Shown: positions 22,565 through 30,362 of the stretch, piece after piece | Numbering within the stretch: position 1 is the stretch's first letter | How the letters are laid out: every line of letters starts with the position of its first letter | NCBI RefSeq assembly: GCF_038561935.1 | Contig: NZ_CP102770.1 | Span: 3,720,001 to 3,784,000 of the forward strand | Reading direction: 5' to 3' | Length of the DNA stretch: 64,000 bases | Origin: Myxococcus stipitatus | GTDB taxonomy: Bacteria; Myxococcota; Myxococcia; Myxococcales; Myxococcaceae | Position numbers and translations under genes: made by a program | Notes under the pieces: generated by a model | What the model saw: only the letters and a program-made list of their open reading frames with translations | What the model was told of the DNA's origin: nothing | Database searches by the model: none

Positions 22565-24175
22565 TCAGGAGGGCCGGCGGGAGCGCCGTCGCAGGAGCCG
22601 GGACAACAGCAGCCCCCCCGCGGGGAGGAGGGTGGCGGTGCTGGTGGAGCAGCCTCCGCCGCCCGAGCCGCCGTCCTTGTCGGCGATGTTCGGAGGCGGG
22701 GTGGGGGTGCCCCCGTCCGTGCCCGGCGAGGTGCCCGCATCCGGGGTTCCGCCCGAGGTCTCGCTGACGCTGACGACGGCGGTCGCCGTGCGTGTCAGGG
22801 CCCCGAAGGTGGCGGTCGCCGTCACGGTGAACTGGCCGGGCCTGGTGTAGACGTGCTTCGCGGTGTGGCCCTCGGCGGTGCCACCGTCGCCGAAGTCCCA
22901 CCGCACGGGGACGTCGGGCGAGGACGTCGTCGCGCGGAAGAGGGCGCTGTGCGGGGCCACGCCGCGCTCACCCTCCACGTTGATGTTCAGCGCGTCGGCC
23001 GGAGGCGGCTGCTCCACGGGGGGCAGGTCCTTGCGCAGCGTGAAGCTGTCGAGCACCTTGTTGTCGATGGTGACGAGCTTCGCGGTGAGCACGCCCTCGA
23101 CGACCTCGACATCCAGGTAGCCGTAGGCCTTGTTGTCGCGCACGACGCTCCAGTCGGGCTGCGCGCCGGAGAAGGGCCGCAGCGCCGCGCCTCCGCCGCC
23201 CACGACGAGGTATGGGATTCCGCCCGACGACGCGATGCTGTCGCCCTGCATGTTCTTGCTGCGCTCGTAGTTGTGGTCATGCCCCGTGAGCACCAGGTCC
23301 ACGCCGTACTTCTCGAAGAGGGGCGCGAACTGGCGGCGCATGGTGAGCTGCGAGCCGTGCTCGCCGCTGGACCAGGCCGGGTGGTGGAAGAAGACGACCT
23401 TCCACGGCTGCTTCGTCGTGGCCAGGTCCGTCTCCAGCCACGCCTTCTGCGCCTCCAGCGTGCAGCGGTTCGGCGCCGCCAGGCCCAGCGCGCAGTTGGA
23501 GTCGATGGACACGAAGTGCACGTGTCCCCAGTCGAAGGAGAAGTAGCGCTCCGAGCCCGCCGGGTTGTTGGTGGGCATGAAGAGGTTGTTCAGATACGGC
23601 TCGCCCTGGTTCGTCACGTACTCGTGGTTGCCGGGGGTGGCGAACATCGGCACCTCGGCGAGCAGCGCGGCCATGGGGGTGAAGAGGTTGTTCTCGAAGT
23701 CGGCCTCGGTGCCGTCGGGGTAGGCGTTGTCGCCCAGCGCCACGAACAGCTCCGGCTTGTTCGTGAGCATGCGTGAGACGACCTTGCGCTGGTCCGAGCC
23801 GCCCGTGCCGAAGTCACCCATGGCGGCGAAGTGCACGCTGCGGGTCCCCGGCTGGGGGGCGGTGGTGAAGCGCTTGGGGGGCGTTGTCGTCCCGCAGGCG
23901 CTCACTTCATAGGTGTACTCGGTGCCGGGCTTCAGGCCCGTCAGCGTCACGGCGTGGTTGCGGCCCGTGGTCTCCGAGCGGGCGACCTCGCTCACGGCAC
24001 CCGTGCCGTAGCGCACCTCGGGCGAGCAACTGGACGCCAGCCGGAATGCCACCAGGGCGGTGTCCGGCCCCACTTTCTGGAGGTAGGGGTCGCGAGCGAG
24101 AACGCCCGCGGAAGCCACGCCCGACACAAGAGTCAGGGCCACGGCCATGAAGGTGAAGCGGGTCTTCAGTTGCAT
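22565..24175 (-). CDS. Surface-anchored purple acid phosphatase-like metallophosphoesterase (PKD, MYXO-CTERM)
   Basis: The 536-residue protein has a signal peptide (to about residue 23), a fibronectin-like N-terminal domain of the purple acid phosphatase type, and a metallophosphoesterase core. The five metal-binding motifs are GDFG, GDNAYPDG, GNHEY, HHPAW and GHDHNYER. A PKD domain (RWDFGDGGTAEG) and a Thr/Pro/Gly linker precede a C-terminal MYXO-CTERM tail (GGSGGGGCS, a hydrophobic stretch, RLLRRRSRRPS). It probably hydrolyses phosphomonoesters at the cell surface. It lies 130 bp downstream of the polyphosphate-type operon on the same strand, which fits phosphate scavenging; the link is inferred. 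Confidence 0.88.
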   Translation of the reverse strand: MQLKTRFTFMAVALTLVSGVASAGVLARDPYLQKVGPDTALVAFRLASSCSPEVRYGTGAVSEVARSETTGRNHAVTLTGLKPGTEYTYEVSACGTTTPPKRFTTAPQPGTRSVHFAAMGDFGTGGSDQRKVVSRMLTNKPELFVALGDNAYPDGTEADFENNLFTPMAALLAEVPMFATPGNHEYVTNQGEPYLNNLFMPTNNPAGSERYFSFDWGHVHFVSIDSNCALGLAAPNRCTLEAQKAWLETDLATTKQPWKVVFFHHPAWSSGEHGSQLTMRRQFAPLFEKYGVDLVLTGHDHNYERSKNMQGDSIASSGGIPYLVVGGGGAALRPFSGAQPDWSVVRDNKAYGYLDVEVVEGVLTAKLVTIDNKVLDSFTLRKDLPPVEQPPPADALNINVEGERGVAPHSALFRATTSSPDVPVRWDFGDGGTAEGHTAKHVYTRPGQFTVTATATFGALTRTATAVVSVSETSGGTPDAGTSPGTDGGTPTPPPNIADKDGGSGGGGCSTSTATLLPAGGLLLSRLLRRRSRRPS

Positions 24176-24305
24176 GCAGCCTCCTCCCGAACCATTTCGG
24201 GACGGAGGCCCAACGGTCTATTTCAGGACGTTCATCCTGAGCGGGGGTTGCCCGGCGGGCGGAGAGACAAGCCCTCGCGCCCTCCACGCACGTGCACCCG
24301 AGCGC

Positions 24306-25079
24306 CTACTTCTTCACGTCGTAGGACGCGAGGTCCTCGATGCGCTCTCCCTCCTCGCGCACCTTGCCGATGCCGGGCACCAGCCAGTACGTGCGCTCCT
24401 TGCCCTCCTTCGCCTCACCCGCGTCATTGAGCTTGTCGCGCCGCACCTTCACGGCGTTGGTGAAGGTGCCCGCCCGCGTCTGCACCGTGACCCCCATCTC
24501 CACCACGCGCCACGCGTAGGTCGGGTCGCCATTCTCCTGGGTGCCGTCGCCCAGCACGGTGAGCTCGCGCACCGCGTTGGTATAGGTCCAGGGCAGGGCG
24601 CTCGGCGCGCGGGCCAGGGACTTCACCGTGGAAGGAGACCACGTGGTGGTGCGCACCCGCGCGCCATCGCGATGGTCCTCCTCGCGCAGCCTCACCACCA
24701 GGCCGTTGTCCTGCTCGACCTGCCACGAGTACTCCTCGTAGACGACGCCCGAGGCGACGCGGTCCTGCTTGCTGTGCACGCGCACCCCCGTCGTGCCCGC
24801 GGGGGCGCCCGGCACGTCGCTGGGGCCTTCCACCGTCACGTGTTTCTGGAAGCGCCCGTGCACGGGGTCCTGGATGTCGTAGACCCAGACGGAGCCCGTC
24901 GTCAGCGGCCACAGGGACGTGGAGGCTGGCGTGTTGGGGGTCCCGGGCTCTCCCGGCAGGCCCACGTCTCCACCCGGAGGCGGCGACCCCAGGCCCTCTC
25001 CACCCGGCAGGCTCTCCCCGCCACCGCACCCCACGAGCAATCCACCGGCCGCGAGCGCGGCCATCCACCAGCGAGTCAT
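24306..25079 (-). CDS. Hypothetical lipoprotein, last gene of the VTC/DUF4956 operon
   Basis: From the ATG at 25077-25079 the 257-residue product has a signal sequence with the lipobox LLVGC (about residues 14-18), then a Gly/Pro-rich linker. The mature region begins with WPLTTGSVWVYDIQD and continues as beta-rich repeats (VTVEGPSDV, YSWQVEQDNGLVVRLRE, FTNAVKVRRDKLND). I recognise this as a common shape among myxobacterial lipoproteins of unknown role. The ATG overlaps the stop of the DUF4956 gene (ATGA), so the two are coupled. Confidence 0.7.
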   Translation of the reverse strand: MTRWWMAALAAGGLLVGCGGGESLPGGEGLGSPPPGGDVGLPGEPGTPNTPASTSLWPLTTGSVWVYDIQDPVHGRFQKHVTVEGPSDVPGAPAGTTGVRVHSKQDRVASGVVYEEYSWQVEQDNGLVVRLREEDHRDGARVRTTTWSPSTVKSLARAPSALPWTYTNAVRELTVLGDGTQENGDPTYAWRVVEMGVTVQTRAGTFTNAVKVRRDKLNDAGEAKEGKERTYWLVPGIGKVREEGERIEDLASYDVKK

Positions 25080-25780
25080 GTCAGCTCCTCCCGGCCCCCT
25101 TTGGGGCTCACCGCCGTCCATCGCAGCCCCCGCAGGGGCATCCCCTCCGTGCGTCCCAGCGCCGCGGTCAGCGAGCCAGGCACGGGCTCCTCCACTTCCA
25201 GCTCCAGCCGACGCCCGTCGAAGTCGAGCGCGCAGCTCTTCACCAACACGTTGCGCTCACCCAGCGCGCTCCTCAGCGTGGCCTCCGCCCTCACCAGGTC
25301 ATCGGCCTGCGCGGAGACGAGCAGCCGTTGCTTCAGCGCGCTCGGCGCCTCGCGGTTGAACAGGTCCAGGACGAGCAACAGCGTCGCCACGAACACGGTG
25401 CCCACGCCCGCGAGCCCCAGGCTGCCGTGGCCACACGCCATGCCCAGGCCAATCATCAGGAAGAGGATGGCCGCGTCGCGCGGGTCCTTCAGCCCCGAGC
25501 GGAAGCGCACGAAGCCGCCCAGGCCCACCAGTCCAAACGCCTTGGCCACGCTGTCGCCGATGACCGCGGTGATGACCGCCGCCGCGGCGCACAGCAGCAC
25601 CTGCGCCTGGACCATGTCCGCCTTCGGCAAGGGCCTGTTCATGAGCAGCCGCCACGGACGCAAGGACAGCAGCGCGCCGATGAACGCCGCCGCGAGCATG
25701 CGCGGCAGCATCACGGTGATGGACAAGGCGCTCATCTCCGCCTTGGCGGTTTCGAAGAGCGAGGGAAGCGAGACCTCCAT
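25076..25780 (-). CDS. DUF4956 family membrane protein
   Basis: The 234-residue protein has four hydrophobic helices in the first 145 residues. They include VMLPRMLAAAFIGALLSL, a second with VLLCAAAAVITAVIGDS, the conserved GLGGFVRFRSGLKDPRDAA loop, and a pair ending in VFVATLLLVLDLFN. A soluble C-terminal ferredoxin-like domain follows (LVSAQADDLVRAEATL). This matches DUF4956, a family found beside VTC-type polyphosphate polymerases and CotH kinases in many bacteria. Its function is unproven; channel or assembly roles have been supposed. GGGAG eight bases before the ATG supports the start. Ten bp separate it from the kinase-repeat gene upstream. Confidence 0.85.
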   Translation of the reverse strand: MEVSLPSLFETAKAEMSALSITVMLPRMLAAAFIGALLSLRPWRLLMNRPLPKADMVQAQVLLCAAAAVITAVIGDSVAKAFGLVGLGGFVRFRSGLKDPRDAAILFLMIGLGMACGHGSLGLAGVGTVFVATLLLVLDLFNREAPSALKQRLLVSAQADDLVRAEATLRSALGERNVLVKSCALDFDGRRLELEVEEPVPGSLTAALGRTEGMPLRGLRWTAVSPKGGREELT

Positions 25781-25791
25781 GGTGGCACTCC

Positions 25792-27507
25792 CTAGACTTC
25801 GGCCTGTGGCGGAGGCACATCCACCGCCAGTCGGCCCGCGCGGGACACGGTGCCCCGGGCGTCGAGGGTCGCCGCGGTGGCGACGACCGCGTAGGCGTTG
25901 CGCAGCACCGGAATCCGCGTGCCGTGGGCCTCCAGGATGCGCTCCATCAGCACGCGCGCCTCGGACTCCAGCGGCAGCCCCTCGAGCGAGGAGAGCACCG
26001 TGGCGGGCCAGCGGTTCGCCTGGGCCACGCGCAGCTTCCACGCCCGCGGGTCGTTCATTCCATCCACCGAATCGAGCGCCTCCTTCGTCCTGCCCGCGGA
26101 CCGCTCGCGCAGGGCCCACGCTTCCTGGGTGGAGAGCCCCGTCAACGAGCGCAGCACCAGCTTCAGCGCCTTGTTCGCCAGCGACTCGCGCAGGCCTCGC
26201 GCCACGGGGGTGTCCAACCCGAGCGTCCCGCGCAGCACCGCGAGCCTGTCATGGGACAGCAGCACCTCGCGCAGCGCCTCGGCCCGGGCGTCTGTCAGTC
26301 CTCCCAGGCTGCGCGCCACTTCGGCGTACAGCCCGCGCGTCATGCCCGCCTCGCGCACCACCCAGGCCTCGTCGTCATTCACGCCGCCCAGGCCCAGGAG
26401 CACCGCGGCCAGGTGTCCATCCCTCACCCCCCGCTCGCGCAGGGCCCAGCCCGGCGGGGAGTCATCGCCCCTCAGTCCTTGGAGGACCTCCGCGGGCGCG
26501 TGGACATACAGCCGCTCGCGCATCATCGCCGCGCGAGGCCCCTTCAATCCCAGAAGGCCGCTGGCCACCTGGAGGGGCGCTCGTGGCGCCAGCATCTCGC
26601 GCAGCGTCCACGCGGCCTCATCATCGAGCCCCTGGAGTCCGCGCGCGGTGAGGACCGGGAAGCGCTCCACGAAGTCCAACCTGCGCTGATGCGCGGCGAG
26701 CCCGGGCAGTCCTCCCAGCAGCCACACGGCCAACGTCGGCTCACGCAGCTCCACCGAGTCGAGTGCCTGGAAGAAGCGCTCCTCCACGTGCTCTACCCGG
26801 AGCGGCTCGGACGGGGGCGCGATGGCGGGGGAGGGGACGATTCGCTGAACGGGGATGTCGCGTCCTTCCAGCCGCGCCACCACCGCGTCCACCAATCGCT
26901 GCTCCAACACGCGCAACGGCACGTCGTTGTTCTCGAGGATGATCCAGCGCCGGGGGTCCTCCTTCGCCAAGGAGAGGAAGGCCTCGCGCATGCGCACGGC
27001 GAGCCCCGCGCCCGCCAGGCCCTTGCGGCTGTCGCCCTCCGGGCTTCGGTCCGTCTGCGCCTTGCCCAGCCGCTTGCGCAGCCGCGCCAGGTCCGGGTCC
27101 ACGTCGACGAGGACGACCAGGTCCGGCCACAGCCCCTGCGCGGCCAGCTCGCACGCGGGCCGCAGCTCCGACAGTGGCAGGCCTCGTCCTCCGCCGCTCA
27201 GCGCGAGCTGCGAGTACAGGTAGCGGTCGGTGATGCACACCTCGCCTCGGGAGAGCGCGGGCGCCACCACTTCCTCCAGCTGTTGAGCGTCTCTGGCCAG
27301 GTTGAGGAAGAACTCCGCGCGTGGCCCCATCTCCAGGAGGCGCGAGTCTCGCGTCAGCTCCCTCACGCGCCGGGCCGTGGATGAGCGGAGCTCTCCGCCC
27401 TCGCGCGCATGAGCCACCCGGTAGCCGAGCTTCTTCAGCCTTCCGGCCAGCAGGTTGGAGAGCGTTGTCTTGCCGCTGCCATCAATCCCCTCGAAATCGA
27501 TGAACAC
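25792..27507 (-). CDS. Thymidylate kinase-like protein fused to tandem 27-residue helical repeats
   Basis: From a GTG at 27505-27507 (GGGGATAGG upstream, six bases after the VTC gene's stop) the product is 571 residues. Residues 1-215 are a dTMP-kinase-type P-loop domain: FEGIDGSGKTT (5-15), DRYLYSQLAL (94-103), VVLVDVDPDLARLRKRLG, and a LID-like region near 150-165. Residues 266-535 contain about ten imperfect repeats of about 27 residues with core G(L/V)xDxxAWxLRE and V(L/A)xSL, predicted to be paired helices. I recall no standard thymidylate kinase with such an extension. Housekeeping dTMP phosphorylation is possible, but the position between VTC and DUF4956 genes suggests a special substrate or partner. 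Confidence 0.8.
   Translation of the reverse strand: MFIDFEGIDGSGKTTLSNLLAGRLKKLGYRVAHAREGGELRSSTARRVRELTRDSRLLEMGPRAEFFLNLARDAQQLEEVVAPALSRGEVCITDRYLYSQLALSGGGRGLPLSELRPACELAAQGLWPDLVVLVDVDPDLARLRKRLGKAQTDRSPEGDSRKGLAGAGLAVRMREAFLSLAKEDPRRWIILENNDVPLRVLEQRLVDAVVARLEGRDIPVQRIVPSPAIAPPSEPLRVEHVEERFFQALDSVELREPTLAVWLLGGLPGLAAHQRRLDFVERFPVLTARGLQGLDDEAAWTLREMLAPRAPLQVASGLLGLKGPRAAMMRERLYVHAPAEVLQGLRGDDSPPGWALRERGVRDGHLAAVLLGLGGVNDDEAWVVREAGMTRGLYAEVARSLGGLTDARAEALREVLLSHDRLAVLRGTLGLDTPVARGLRESLANKALKLVLRSLTGLSTQEAWALRERSAGRTKEALDSVDGMNDPRAWKLRVAQANRWPATVLSSLEGLPLESEARVLMERILEAHGTRIPVLRNAYAVVATAATLDARGTVSRAGRLAVDVPPPQAEV
25903..26712 (-). repeat. Protein-level repeats in the kinase C-terminal half
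   Basis: About ten units of 26-28 codons (residues 266-535) align on GLDDEAAWTLRE, GVNDDEAWVVRE, GLTDARAEALRE, GLSTQEAWALRE and GMNDPRAWKLR. Variation is higher than in recent DNA duplications, so the array is old and under selection for a helical-repeat fold. Confidence 0.75.
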
Positions 27508-27512
27508 GTTGC

Positions 27513-28226
27513 CTATCCCCTCGCGACCCCATCCGCGGCGAAGGCATGAACCCTCGCCATCCCCTCCGCGAACTTGCTGTACGTCGGCATCCCTCCAGGA
27601 TTGAGCGACGCCAGCCAGTCCGGCAGCTCCTGACCCAGGTGCTTCACCTCCACCACCACGCGCCCTTCCCGCGACAGCGGCGGTCCCAGTCGCTCGCTCG
27701 ACAAGGCGAACCGGGACATCGCCACTTCGGGGGCAATCTGGTGGTAGCCGATGTCCCGGTCCACCGTCACCCGCCAGCCTCGCGAGGAGGGATACACGTG
27801 GCGCTGGTACGTCACCGCCAGCACCGGCGACAGACTGCCTCCGGTGATGAGCGGCAACAGCCGCGTGCCTCCGCCCAGCACGCGCCCCAGCTCCGAGCGC
27901 GGCACCCAGACGCGCCGCTTCTGCGTGAGGCCATGGCGCTCGCGCTTCACCTCGAGCACCACGCGCTCCACGCCCTCGGCGCCGATGTCCGGTGCGTACT
28001 CCTTCGTGCGCACCTTGAGGCAGTCCTCGGGCGAGCGCAGCGCGCGCTCCGCCAGCGGACAGCCCGGACGGTCGAAGTACACGGAGGCGATGCGCGTGGG
28101 CTCCGGCACCAGCCCACCCAGGTCCTCCGACAAGCGCTGGCACAGCACCAGCGCCGCTTGCTCCTCCAGCACCAGCTTGAACTCACGCCGGAGCCTGGTC
28201 ACTTCCCCCTCGGAGAACGAGAGCAT
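27513..28226 (-). CDS. VTC domain protein, probable polyphosphate polymerase
   Basis: The 237-residue protein is a complete VTC catalytic domain. It has REFKLVL, YFDRPGCPLAE, LKVRTKEY, LEVKRERHGLTQKRR, VTYQRHVY, VTVDRDIGY, VVEVKHLG and TYSKFAEGM, i.e. the Lys/Arg-rich tunnel of the yeast vacuolar transporter chaperone enzyme Vtc4, which makes polyphosphate from ATP. Bacterial stand-alone VTC domains are annotated as polyphosphate polymerases, mostly without direct proof. It is transcribed with a porin gene (15 bp upstream) and the kinase-repeat gene (5 bp downstream). Confidence 0.88.
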   Translation of the reverse strand: MLSFSEGEVTRLRREFKLVLEEQAALVLCQRLSEDLGGLVPEPTRIASVYFDRPGCPLAERALRSPEDCLKVRTKEYAPDIGAEGVERVVLEVKRERHGLTQKRRVWVPRSELGRVLGGGTRLLPLITGGSLSPVLAVTYQRHVYPSSRGWRVTVDRDIGYHQIAPEVAMSRFALSSERLGPPLSREGRVVVEVKHLGQELPDWLASLNPGGMPTYSKFAEGMARVHAFAADGVARG

Positions 28227-28241
28227 GGCGTGTCTCCATGA

Positions 28242-29450
28242 CTAGAAACGGGTCGCCAGCTGCAGCGAGTACTCGAGGCCCGGCGCCTCATCCCCTGGCC
28301 GCAGCGCGCGCTCCACCTGGAACTGCCCCCGGAACCGACTCCCCAGCAGCAGGTTGAGGCCCCCCAACATCGAATGGCCTCGCCCCTTCACGTCACCCCT
28401 CAACTGCAAGCCCTCCACGCCCACCACGGGCTGGAGCGCCCACTCCACCGTCACTGGCACCGTCCAGCTGGCCAGCAGGAGCTGCGCGGTGAACGGCCCC
28501 ACGGGAAGACGTCCCGTGACGACCTCGCCCGTCACGCTCCACGCACCGCTCCTCCATTCCGCGTCCGCCGCGACGGCATGGCGGCGTGCCCGGTCCATGG
28601 CCTCCGCGACGTAGGTACTCACGCCCAAGGTGAGCATCTTCCCGAGCGGACGCACGCTCACGCGGCCGGCGATGTCCTCCTTGGTGCGCACGCCCAGCTC
28701 GTCCTTGGAGCCCTGGAAGACGCCCGCGGAGACGCGCACGTCCCAGAGGCTCTTGAGGCGCACCTCTCCCATGAGCCCGAGCCGGCGGCCCCCCAGCTCG
28801 TACTCACCCAGGTAGTCCTCCACCAGTCCGCGCCCTTGGATGGGCAGGCTCCAGGAGCCCTCGAGGCGGCGCTGGAGGAAGGGCGCCTTGAACTGGCCGC
28901 CGTAGAGCCTGAAGCGCTTCGCGTCATCCGCCAGGCGCACGAAGGCGTCCTTGAGCAGGGACGAGTCCGCGAGGTCCGCGCTCACCTCCGCCTCGAGGTT
29001 GGGCAGCGAGGTGCCCACGCCCACGCGCGCGGAAGGGATGCTCAGCGAGCGCTGGTATTTCTCCCGCTCATCCGCGCTGGCGCGTGCGTAGACGCGGCCG
29101 AAGACCCGCACGCGCTGGACTTCGTCCGCGGGGGTGTCGTCGAGCGCGGTGGAGTCCTCGCCCATCGAGTCCTCCTGCTGCGGGCCGGGCTTCGATTTCT
29201 TCTTCTTCGCGGGCGCGGCCGGCTCCGGCGGCACCCGCTGCGCCATCGCGTCGTCTGGAAGCCTCGATGGGGGCTCCAGGGGCTCGGAGCCCTCGGGCGG
29301 GCCGCTGTCGGAGGGCTCGACGCCATCCACCGCTCCACCCGAGAGCGAGTCCTCTCCGGCTTCCGGCGACGCCGCCAGCACCGGTGCACTCATGAGGACC
29401 GCGACGAGGAGGCCCCTTTTCCCACGTAGATTCCTCCACCTCCCGCCCAT
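28242..29450 (-). CDS. OprO/OprP-like outer-membrane porin, first gene of the VTC operon
   Basis: From the ATG at 29448-29450 (GGGGAGG seven bases upstream) the 402-residue product has a signal peptide (LLVAVLMSAPVLAASP) and a long charged linker with a Lys-rich stretch (PAKKKKSKPG, about residue 80). The remaining 280 residues have beta-barrel character and end in Phe (LQLATRF). The barrel shows the order typical of phosphate-selective porins: DAFVRLADDAKRFRLYGGQFKAPF split over residues about 170-195, then RLGLMGEVRL and VSAGVFQGS. OprP/OprO proteins pass phosphate or polyphosphate. Similarity is by pattern, not alignment. It heads the operon porin - VTC - kinase - DUF4956 - lipoprotein. 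Confidence 0.7.
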   Translation of the reverse strand: MGGRWRNLRGKRGLLVAVLMSAPVLAASPEAGEDSLSGGAVDGVEPSDSGPPEGSEPLEPPSRLPDDAMAQRVPPEPAAPAKKKKSKPGPQQEDSMGEDSTALDDTPADEVQRVRVFGRVYARASADEREKYQRSLSIPSARVGVGTSLPNLEAEVSADLADSSLLKDAFVRLADDAKRFRLYGGQFKAPFLQRRLEGSWSLPIQGRGLVEDYLGEYELGGRRLGLMGEVRLKSLWDVRVSAGVFQGSKDELGVRTKEDIAGRVSVRPLGKMLTLGVSTYVAEAMDRARRHAVAADAEWRSGAWSVTGEVVTGRLPVGPFTAQLLLASWTVPVTVEWALQPVVGVEGLQLRGDVKGRGHSMLGGLNLLLGSRFRGQFQVERALRPGDEAPGLEYSLQLATRF

Positions 29451-29663: not shown

Positions 29664-30362
29664 TTACTGGCTGGACGCCGCATCCGGCGGCGGGACGGTG
29701 GAAGCGGCGGGCGCGGTGGCCGTGGCCGTCTCCGCGGGCGCGACGGGCAGCGGCGCCGGGGCCGCGGGCGGGCTCGGGGGCGCGGAGGCCTTCACCCGCC
29801 GCACCATGGCCCGGACGCCCAGGGCCAGCGCGGTGCCCGCGGACAGGGCCAGGATTCCCCAGCTGAGGCCCGGAGGCAGGGGCTGGGCGGCGACGGTGAG
29901 GTGACCCGTGAGCACCTTCAGCCGCGTGTTCTGGTAGCGCACCTCCAGCTCGTAGAGGCCCGGCTCGTCGAACTCCACCTGCGTGTGCCAGTTGACCCCG
30001 TCGCGCTGGAGCGTCCGGGTCACCTGCTGGGCCGGCGAGTCCTTCAGGTGGAACGTCACGGTCAGCGGCCCGGTGAACTCGGGGCCCTCGAACGCGCCCA
30101 CGTGCAGGGACAGCATGGAGGGGTCGCCTTCCCGGGGGGAGGCGGGGTGAAGCGTACCCTGCAAGCGCTCCTCGGCGTCCGCCCAGCGCAGCTCCAGGAC
30201 GTCGCCCCTTCGCTCCATGCGGATCTGATCCACACGGGGAGTGGCCGCGAGTGCTCCCGTCCCGATGAGGCAGGTCATCAGCGCACCCGCCAAAATTACT
30301 GCGAGTGGCCTTTGCCTCCGAAGCCACTGTCTCCTAAGATGCCGAGCCCTGACGCGTTCCAC
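29664..30362 (-). CDS. Hypothetical exported protein with beta-sandwich domain and C-terminal helix
   Basis: The start is uncertain: a GTG at 30360-30362 has GGGGGAG nine bases upstream, and a TTG at 30371 is also in frame. A basic n-region (LRRQWLRRQRPL) precedes a hydrophobic segment ending in GALAATP. The next 110 residues look like an Ig-type beta sandwich (TVTFHLKD, TQVEFDEPGLYELEVRYQN). Then a helix (GILALSAGTALALGV) and a Pro/Ala/Thr-rich tail follow. This fits a membrane-anchored extracytoplasmic domain, with YtkA/FixH-like folds as one option. It is divergent from the adjacent Ser/Thr kinase gene, 31 bp away, and could be functionally linked. Confidence 0.6.
   Translation of the reverse strand: MERVRARHLRRQWLRRQRPLAVILAGALMTCLIGTGALAATPRVDQIRMERRGDVLELRWADAEERLQGTLHPASPREGDPSMLSLHVGAFEGPEFTGPLTVTFHLKDSPAQQVTRTLQRDGVNWHTQVEFDEPGLYELEVRYQNTRLKVLTGHLTVAAQPLPPGLSWGILALSAGTALALGVRAMVRRVKASAPPSPPAAPAPLPVAPAETATATAPAASTVPPPDAASSQ

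Follow-up and report, generated by a model that had tools for sequence, protein, structure and literature searches.

The route by which polyphosphate leaves bacterial cells is, to our knowledge, an open question, and it is raised by a compact group of genes in Myxococcus stipitatus. The region analysed (C1:3720001-3784000, 64,000 nucleotides of a 10.17 Mb genome, hereafter the window; coordinates below are positions in it unless a contig or locus is named) carries on its minus strand five genes encoding an outer-membrane barrel, a VTC-domain protein, a Tmk-like P-loop kinase, a DUF4956 membrane protein and a lipoprotein, which form a tight operon with a metallophosphatase gene associated. The intergenic gaps are 15 bp (barrel-VTC), 5 bp (VTC-Tmk-like) and 11 bp (Tmk-like-DUF4956), the DUF4956 and lipoprotein genes overlap by 4 bp (ATGA), and the phosphatase gene lies 130 bp downstream of the lipoprotein gene on the same strand; this layout had been described in a first-pass annotation of the same DNA, which proved exact to the base. 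Scans with Pfam and NCBIfam profiles at curated cut-offs, by which the window proteins were named, and comparison with relatives show that the gene set is a VTC-DUF4956 module in a variant form, to which an unusual kinase belongs; it is real, conserved and phosphate-linked, and its direction and chemistry are what we infer. Tentatively, and with a little less than even confidence, we favour the reading in which polyphosphate made by VTC passes DUF4956 and leaves the cell via an outer-membrane partner. What is observed on the side of export are the protein families, the gene order, its conservation, catalytic residues that are intact and an altered acceptor site in the kinase.

The neighbourhoods of 79 stretches among 119 other VTC places were compared, family presence per stretch being scored with hidden Markov models (HMMs) on six-frame open reading frames (ORFs); as these HMMs derive from the clusters themselves (the one for Pit from a single sequence), they show presence in relatives and do not represent a blind test. 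The order of the window, barrel-VTC-Tmk-DUF4956 (type 1), was found in 40/79 stretches, most of them close relatives with shared flanks and therefore not independent, and these 40 contained DUF4956 in 40, the lipoprotein in 39 and the phosphatase in 33 cases (anywhere in the stretch). The order CotH-VTC-barrel-Tmk-DUF4956 (type 2) was found in 12/79, with CotH in 12/12, and the other 27 stretches showed neither order (L088 is among them only through overlapping ORF coordinates). The barrel-VTC-Tmk arrangement is not a matter of chance, and the genes do co-occur in other genomes, on which the first-pass annotation had made its proposal depend. In the Anaeromyxobacter-like loci L087, L088, L203 and L204 (the genus label is tentative) the phosphatase and CotH genes are divergent and stand next to the barrel gene (4/4); this position speaks for the phosphatase as a part of the system, which synteny in the window alone would not show.

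In a survey of 195 genomes of the phylum, the repeat part of the kinase was matched in 76 genomes, and after a weak partial match (G162) was set aside, 97 places in 75 genomes were left. A VTC match lay within 5 kb of 89 of these places. Four of the other eight do adjoin VTC (those of G126, G031 and G032, as well as that of G139 if a contig break is bridged), their VTC having been missed by the family search or placed on another contig; the remaining four are split copies in G127 and G102, with VTC elsewhere in the genome, a copy in G078 with which a contig begins and one in G157. The latter (L205:7062-8726) is a divergent Tmk-repeat protein, and no VTC was called within its 16.5 kb stretch. 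Counted per genome, VTC and the repeat kinase occurred together in 70, the repeat kinase only in 5, VTC only in 24 and neither in 96; this overlap is undercounted, since VTC was missed in some genomes. DUF4956 was present in 110/195 genomes, comprising all 94 with VTC and 16 without a VTC match, and the two lay within 4 kb of each other in 73/73 stretches holding both (one gene apart in the window). A wider scan for the kinase returned at least 80 loci, including at least 11 full-length fusions, and the 69 others listed matched the kinase part or little more. The full-length fusions belong to Myxococcaceae, Kofleriaceae (L125), Myxococcales UBA2376 (L127), a Myxococcales metagenome-assembled genome (MAG; L129) and a Planctomycetota MAG (L128); VTC was found in 10 of the 11 fusion loci listed, L125 being the exception, and in L127 it is about 8 kb from the kinase.

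The VTC-domain protein (27513..28226, minus strand, 237 amino acids), with a Vtc4-like triphosphate tunnel, matched PF09359 at an E-value of 9e-16 and 58.6 bits (curated cut-off 23). Alignment of 31 proteins, i.e., the window copy plus 30 drawn from across the phylum, revealed 16 invariant columns: E15, Y50, D52, R73, Y77, E92, K94, R105, R142, R152, D156, E193, K195, P202, W204 and K218. When the profile of this alignment was searched against the PDB, Vtc4 structures came out on top (3g3q at 1.2e-22), and a single-sequence phmmer search of the PDB with the window protein gave no Vtc4 and one chance match (E 0.51). According to the profile alignment, K200, R264, K281, K294, R361, R373, E426 and K458 of Vtc4 are identical to K17, R73, K94, K103, R142, R152, E193 and K218 of the window protein, R266 corresponds to Lys75, and R253 is not kept (Ala62), while Lys195 is kept at the E-x-K position. 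Hence, 8 of the 10 positions that we take to be catalytic or tunnel residues of Vtc4 are identical, the list being our own assumption save for K458. The latter is named as catalytic in an excerpt of PMC4641920, where basic residues of Vtc4 are described as leading the chain away and AtTTM3, a short-chain polyphosphatase, as having glutamates there; a search of PMC9911596 for Vtc4 residue numbers returned none. The Lys/Arg tunnel motifs noticed at first pass therefore mostly hold, and the failure of active-site residues to align, which would have spoken against the first-pass proposal, was not seen. Like the polymerase domain of the yeast VTC complex, to which it is related over nearly its whole length with most tunnel residues kept, the window protein would polymerise phosphate from ATP, presumably on the cytoplasmic side of the inner membrane, as homology and the conserved residues suggest. 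It differs in being a single domain that apparently lacks both a membrane part and an SPX part; here the membrane part would be a separate DUF4956 protein, and the system would face the periplasm instead of the vacuole. The VTC mentioned in an excerpt of PMC6514570 is another domain (the Vms1 treble clef) and was rejected as a relative.

The DUF4956 protein (25076..25780, minus strand) matched PF16316 at 2.5e-11 and 44 bits (cut-off 30.6). It has about four hydrophobic regions (residues 19-141) and a C-terminal soluble part, and the profile of its alignment found no sequence relative in the PDB at E up to 1. By analogy with the transmembrane part of yeast VTC, it may form the inner-membrane path for the growing chain. 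Short versions of 173-176 amino acids were observed in the Anaeromyxobacter-like loci (L087:5791-6321, L203:7748-8269 and L204:7828-8358), that of L087 having lost most of the C-terminal soluble part.

The chain's way out through the outer membrane would be the porin-like barrel (28242..29450, minus strand, 402 amino acids), which the first-pass annotation had called OprO/P-like. Among its aligned homologues, 20 of 30 proteins match Porin_O_P (PF07396) with E-values of at most 0.1 (the lowest being 8.8e-14), and the window copy has no Pfam match of its own. The predicted model (pLDDT 71.2 overall, pTM 0.65) comprises about 108 disordered N-terminal residues followed by 16 predicted strands. 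In the fold search a general porin came first, OprO second (E 2.8e-10, TM-score 0.58, root-mean-square deviation (rmsd) 10.6), and many general porins were retrieved; among the best 50 rows, the two OprO entries had the highest query TM-score (0.58). The barrel shares with the phosphate- and polyphosphate-selective porins OprO and OprP the Pfam family of 20/30 members and 16 predicted strands, and differs from them in the long disordered N-terminus and in that its alignment profile found no sequence relative in the PDB at E up to 1; its selectivity is putative.

The outer-membrane partner is not the same in all relatives. Among the 73 VTC+DUF4956 loci, a barrel was present in 58, a barrel together with OEP in none, and HlyD or OEP was called in 8. 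The VTC-DUF4956 genes run in line into HlyD and OEP in five loci (L058, L059, L060, L085 and L097) and are followed by HlyD at the end of the contig or stretch in two more (L101, L108); the HlyD match of L057, about 3 kb beyond DUF4956 with a barrel also present, was not counted as an adaptor locus. In some Myxococcota, then, an HlyD adaptor and a TolC-type channel follow VTC-DUF4956 in place of the porin, which is a new comparative point. The gene order in L059 is LTD, two unnamed genes, a PPDK_N-type lipoprotein, VTC, DUF4956, HlyD and OEP, and no ABC, RND or MFS match was found among the 10 of its 19 called genes that were scanned. This arrangement resembles the HlyD/TolC tripartite exporters in its adaptor and channel genes and differs from them in lacking such a pump among the genes scanned, the place of which would be held by DUF4956. 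Outside the cell, the lipoprotein and the metallophosphatase, and in sister loci CotH and PPDK_N lipoproteins, might use or trim the chain. One of these loci (L097:9480-11510) encodes, between DUF4956 and OEP, a fusion protein in which an HlyD-type adaptor is joined with a Phytase-like domain.

Several observations weigh against export. Glu15, invariant in the bacterial VTC proteins, stands where Vtc4 has Thr, and in this the bacterial proteins may resemble phosphatases among the triphosphate tunnel metalloenzymes; with the Vtc4-like residues mostly kept but Glu15 present, the window protein looks like a polymerase, and room is left for another reaction. The window barrel, as said, lacks a Pfam match. 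In 8/73 VTC+DUF4956 loci, neither a barrel nor HlyD/OEP was present in the stretch examined; no DUF4956 turned up next to VTC-Tmk in L128 or L129, and in L125 neither VTC nor DUF4956 did. Phosphate genes, which count in favour of export where they occur, are rare near the module, PhoU_div or PHO4 being called in just 4/79 stretches: L055, which reads CotH-VTC-barrel-Tmk-DUF4956-PhoU_div-PHO4, and L064, L078 and L082 with PhoU_div (Pfam-confirmed). In L129, Na_Pi_cotrans stands in line between VTC and Tmk-repeat, which likewise speaks for export, and the genes directly after Tmk are of arsenic type (ArsD, ArsA and an SBF-family transporter; L129:11816-15019), so that PHO4, PhoU_div, a response regulator, a histidine kinase and a PBP_like_2 protein further on may form an arsenic/phosphate island and are weak evidence; as L129 is not among the main supports, our weighing is unchanged by it. 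OprP and OprO porins, moreover, are known for uptake, and a surface phosphatase fits scavenging equally.

These last points lead to a different reading, namely scavenging and storage, in which the phosphatase would free inorganic phosphate (Pi), the porin admit Pi or oligophosphate, a transporter import it and VTC store it, DUF4956 acting as a sensor or regulator as MgtC-like proteins may. The Porin_O_P family, the phosphatase neighbour in Myxococcaceae and in 4/4 Anaeromyxobacter-like loci, PHO4/PhoU_div beside some sister loci and a weak, sub-threshold match of DUF4956 to MgtC (E 0.0026) agree with it. We consider it rather unlikely: PPK1 and PPK2 are both encoded in the genome, so that plain polyphosphate storage is already covered, the HlyD and TolC-type channel in the porin's place point outward, and the CotH and PPDK_N lipoproteins of sister loci are left unexplained. 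The phosphate or polyphosphate theme proposed at first pass is itself borne out by the Vtc4-like tunnel, the Porin_O_P family and PHO4 and/or PhoU_div beside four sister loci, and the idea of a system spanning the envelope is supported as well.

The kinase (25792..27507, minus strand, GTG start) matched Thymidylate_kin (PF02223) at 7.7e-24. The predicted model of its 570 residues is confident (pLDDT 91.4, pTM 0.89) and consists of a kinase fold (residues 1-212) and a tail (237-549) of paired helices that recur about every 27 residues; residues 1-215 overlay thymidylate kinases (for 4edh, 204 residues were aligned with Z 26.6 and rmsd 1.9). As the VIA-align rows span residues 1-216 only, the label 'helical repeat' rests on the helices of the model. 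The acceptor site was compared between 12 fused Tmk-repeat proteins and 14 canonical Tmk proteins, and in an alignment of 28 fused homologues (A2). Asp9, Lys13, Arg49, Asp94 and Arg95 do not vary across the 12 fused and 14 canonical rows, and the lid Arg161 is found in 12/12 and 13/14, respectively; the P-loop, DR motif and lid Arg of dTMP kinase are thus kept in the window protein. At position 73, Arg of 14/14 canonical proteins is replaced by Asp or Glu in 12/12 fused ones, with a new Arg preceding (in A2, Asp 16 and Glu 12), and at position 104, Gln of 14/14 gives way to Ser, Ala or Gly in 12/12 (in A2, Ser 13, Ala 11 and Thr 4). The canonical Tyr103 is Leu (Gln in one), and in the fused lid Lys162-Gly163 replace a hydrophobic residue and Glu/Asp, giving an SRKG motif. 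Positions 73 and 104 we take to be thymine contacts, as in the Tmk of S. aureus and human. Their change in all fused copies compared makes a dTMP kinase doubtful, and the earlier suggestion of a nucleotide kinase adjusting NTP is unproven. Judged by these residues, the protein is probably a P-loop phosphotransferase with its ATP side intact and an acceptor that is no longer dTMP. With thymidylate kinase it shares the fold and the ATP-side catalytic residues, and it is set apart by the replaced thymine-reading positions, the SRKG lid and the tail of helical repeats, which is some 300 residues long.

That the protein is simply a conventional dTMP or nucleotide kinase, standing in the operon by happenstance, seems to us very unlikely, even though it passes the NCBI dTMP kinase model (TIGR00041, 92.1 bits against a cut-off of 83.25) and has the Tmk fold. 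A canonical tmk (148 bits) is encoded elsewhere in the genome, the replacements of Arg73 and Gln104 extend to every fused copy compared, VTC adjoins 93 of the 97 copies (in one case only if a contig break is bridged), and comparison of 28 homologues shows invariant residues proper to the repeat part. In the export reading, the repeats may dock on a VTC-DUF4956 complex, at which the protein would prime, cap or recycle phosphate. The common ancestry of PPK2 enzymes and thymidylate kinases, stated in an excerpt of PMC8776046, makes a polyphosphate-related acceptor conceivable. A third, weak Thymidylate_kin match of 26.5 bits was observed in the same genome (C1:2933422-2933931).

The pairing of VTC with DUF4956, commonly beside CotH, had been mentioned in the first-pass annotation, and it agrees with an excerpt of PMC7112168, in which CotH, polyphosphate polymerase, DUF4956 and DUF4832 stand beside Gram-positive Pel genes and no function is given there for the bacterial VTC/DUF4956 pair. 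The further suggestion that the Tmk-like fusion occupies the kinase slot of CotH failed: a substitution is ruled out, as sister loci carry both (12/12 type 2 and 4/4 Anaeromyxobacter-like loci). No CotH match was found among the six window proteins, nor by HMM in the surrounding 20 kb (L111), and four CotH genes lie elsewhere in the genome. PPDK_N-type proteins were found in 11/79 VTC stretches, with Pfam confirmation in L033 and L125; an ATP-binding domain of this kind would be odd outside the cell. The probable lipoproteins concerned are L033:505-2520 (minus strand, signal seen by eye) and L125:4429-6312 (plus strand).

Such proteins raise another possibility, in which exported polyphosphate serves as phosphoryl donor or graft for extracellular kinases or polymers, given that CotH and PPDK_N lipoproteins act where ATP is scarce and would need some other donor. 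CotH in all type 2 loci and the PPDK_N-type proteins speak for it, as does L127, with PelG and a DUF3492 glycosyltransferase besides VTC, DUF4832, DUF4956 and Tmk-repeat. Consistent with this, mutants of the CotH-like SIR_1594 and the MgtC/ACT-type SIR_1592 of S. intermedius are altered in Pel level and aggregation, according to an excerpt of PMC12345266 which suggests a phosphate role and in which the trio was not found outside Pel loci. In the genomes surveyed here, VTC and DUF4956 commonly occur as a pair in loci in which no Pel genes were noticed, no locus-by-locus Pel search having been made. The window operon shares with the Gram-positive Pel accessory module (CotH-polyphosphate polymerase-DUF4956-DUF4832; excerpts of PMC7112168 and PMC12345266) the neighbouring VTC and DUF4956, and the Myxococcota locus L127 shares PelG, the DUF3492 glycosyltransferase and DUF4832; the operon differs in that neither Pel genes nor CotH nor DUF4832 turned up in it and in the addition of a porin, the Tmk-repeat kinase, a lipoprotein and a phosphatase. 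Against donor supply stand the lack of CotH and PPDK_N in the window operon, CotH occurring elsewhere in the genome only, and the PPDK_N lipoprotein not being found in this genome in a search without a positive control. We know of no CotH that uses polyphosphate as donor. Altogether, we regard donor supply as unlikely. The L127 stretch itself (L127:1202-11725, a Myxococcales MAG) encodes PelG, the DUF3492 glycosyltransferase, VTC, DUF4832/DUF4874 and Tmk-repeat, with a DUF4956 match just under the cut-off.

A bolder form of export, to which we give a rather low probability, would make VTC-DUF4956 a pump-less exporter driven by polymerisation, with interchangeable exits: DUF4956 would dock to the OprO/P-like porin here and to HlyD and the TolC-type channel in relatives, the former Tmk kinase would act at the chain end or on a non-nucleotide acceptor, and CotH/PPDK_N would use the chain as donor. 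If export holds true, the widespread bacterial VTC-DUF4956 gene pair gains a job, synthesis-coupled translocation of the yeast kind exists in bacteria, and a gene passing the NCBI dTMP kinase model encodes a different enzyme; the reading is directly testable in Myxococcus. Literature searches on extracellular polyphosphate secretion yielded no title on such a system, nor did those on Myxococcus with polyphosphate, VTC or CotH and on thymidylate kinase with HEAT repeat or polyphosphate among the matches listed.

The lipoprotein (24306..25079, minus strand) bears an N-terminal LLVGC recognised by eye, and its best family match, DUF3108-like, is below threshold. The metallophosphatase (22565..24175, minus strand), annotated at first pass as a MYXO-CTERM purple acid phosphatase-like enzyme, has Metallophos, PKD and Pur_ac_phosph_N domains; its MYXO-CTERM-like tail scored 15.4 bits, just under the cut-off of 15.85, and the protein is probably exported. 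Upstream of the barrel, a conserved gene on the same strand (29664-30218, minus; cluster 7) is present in 36/80 loci and could be part of the same transcript.

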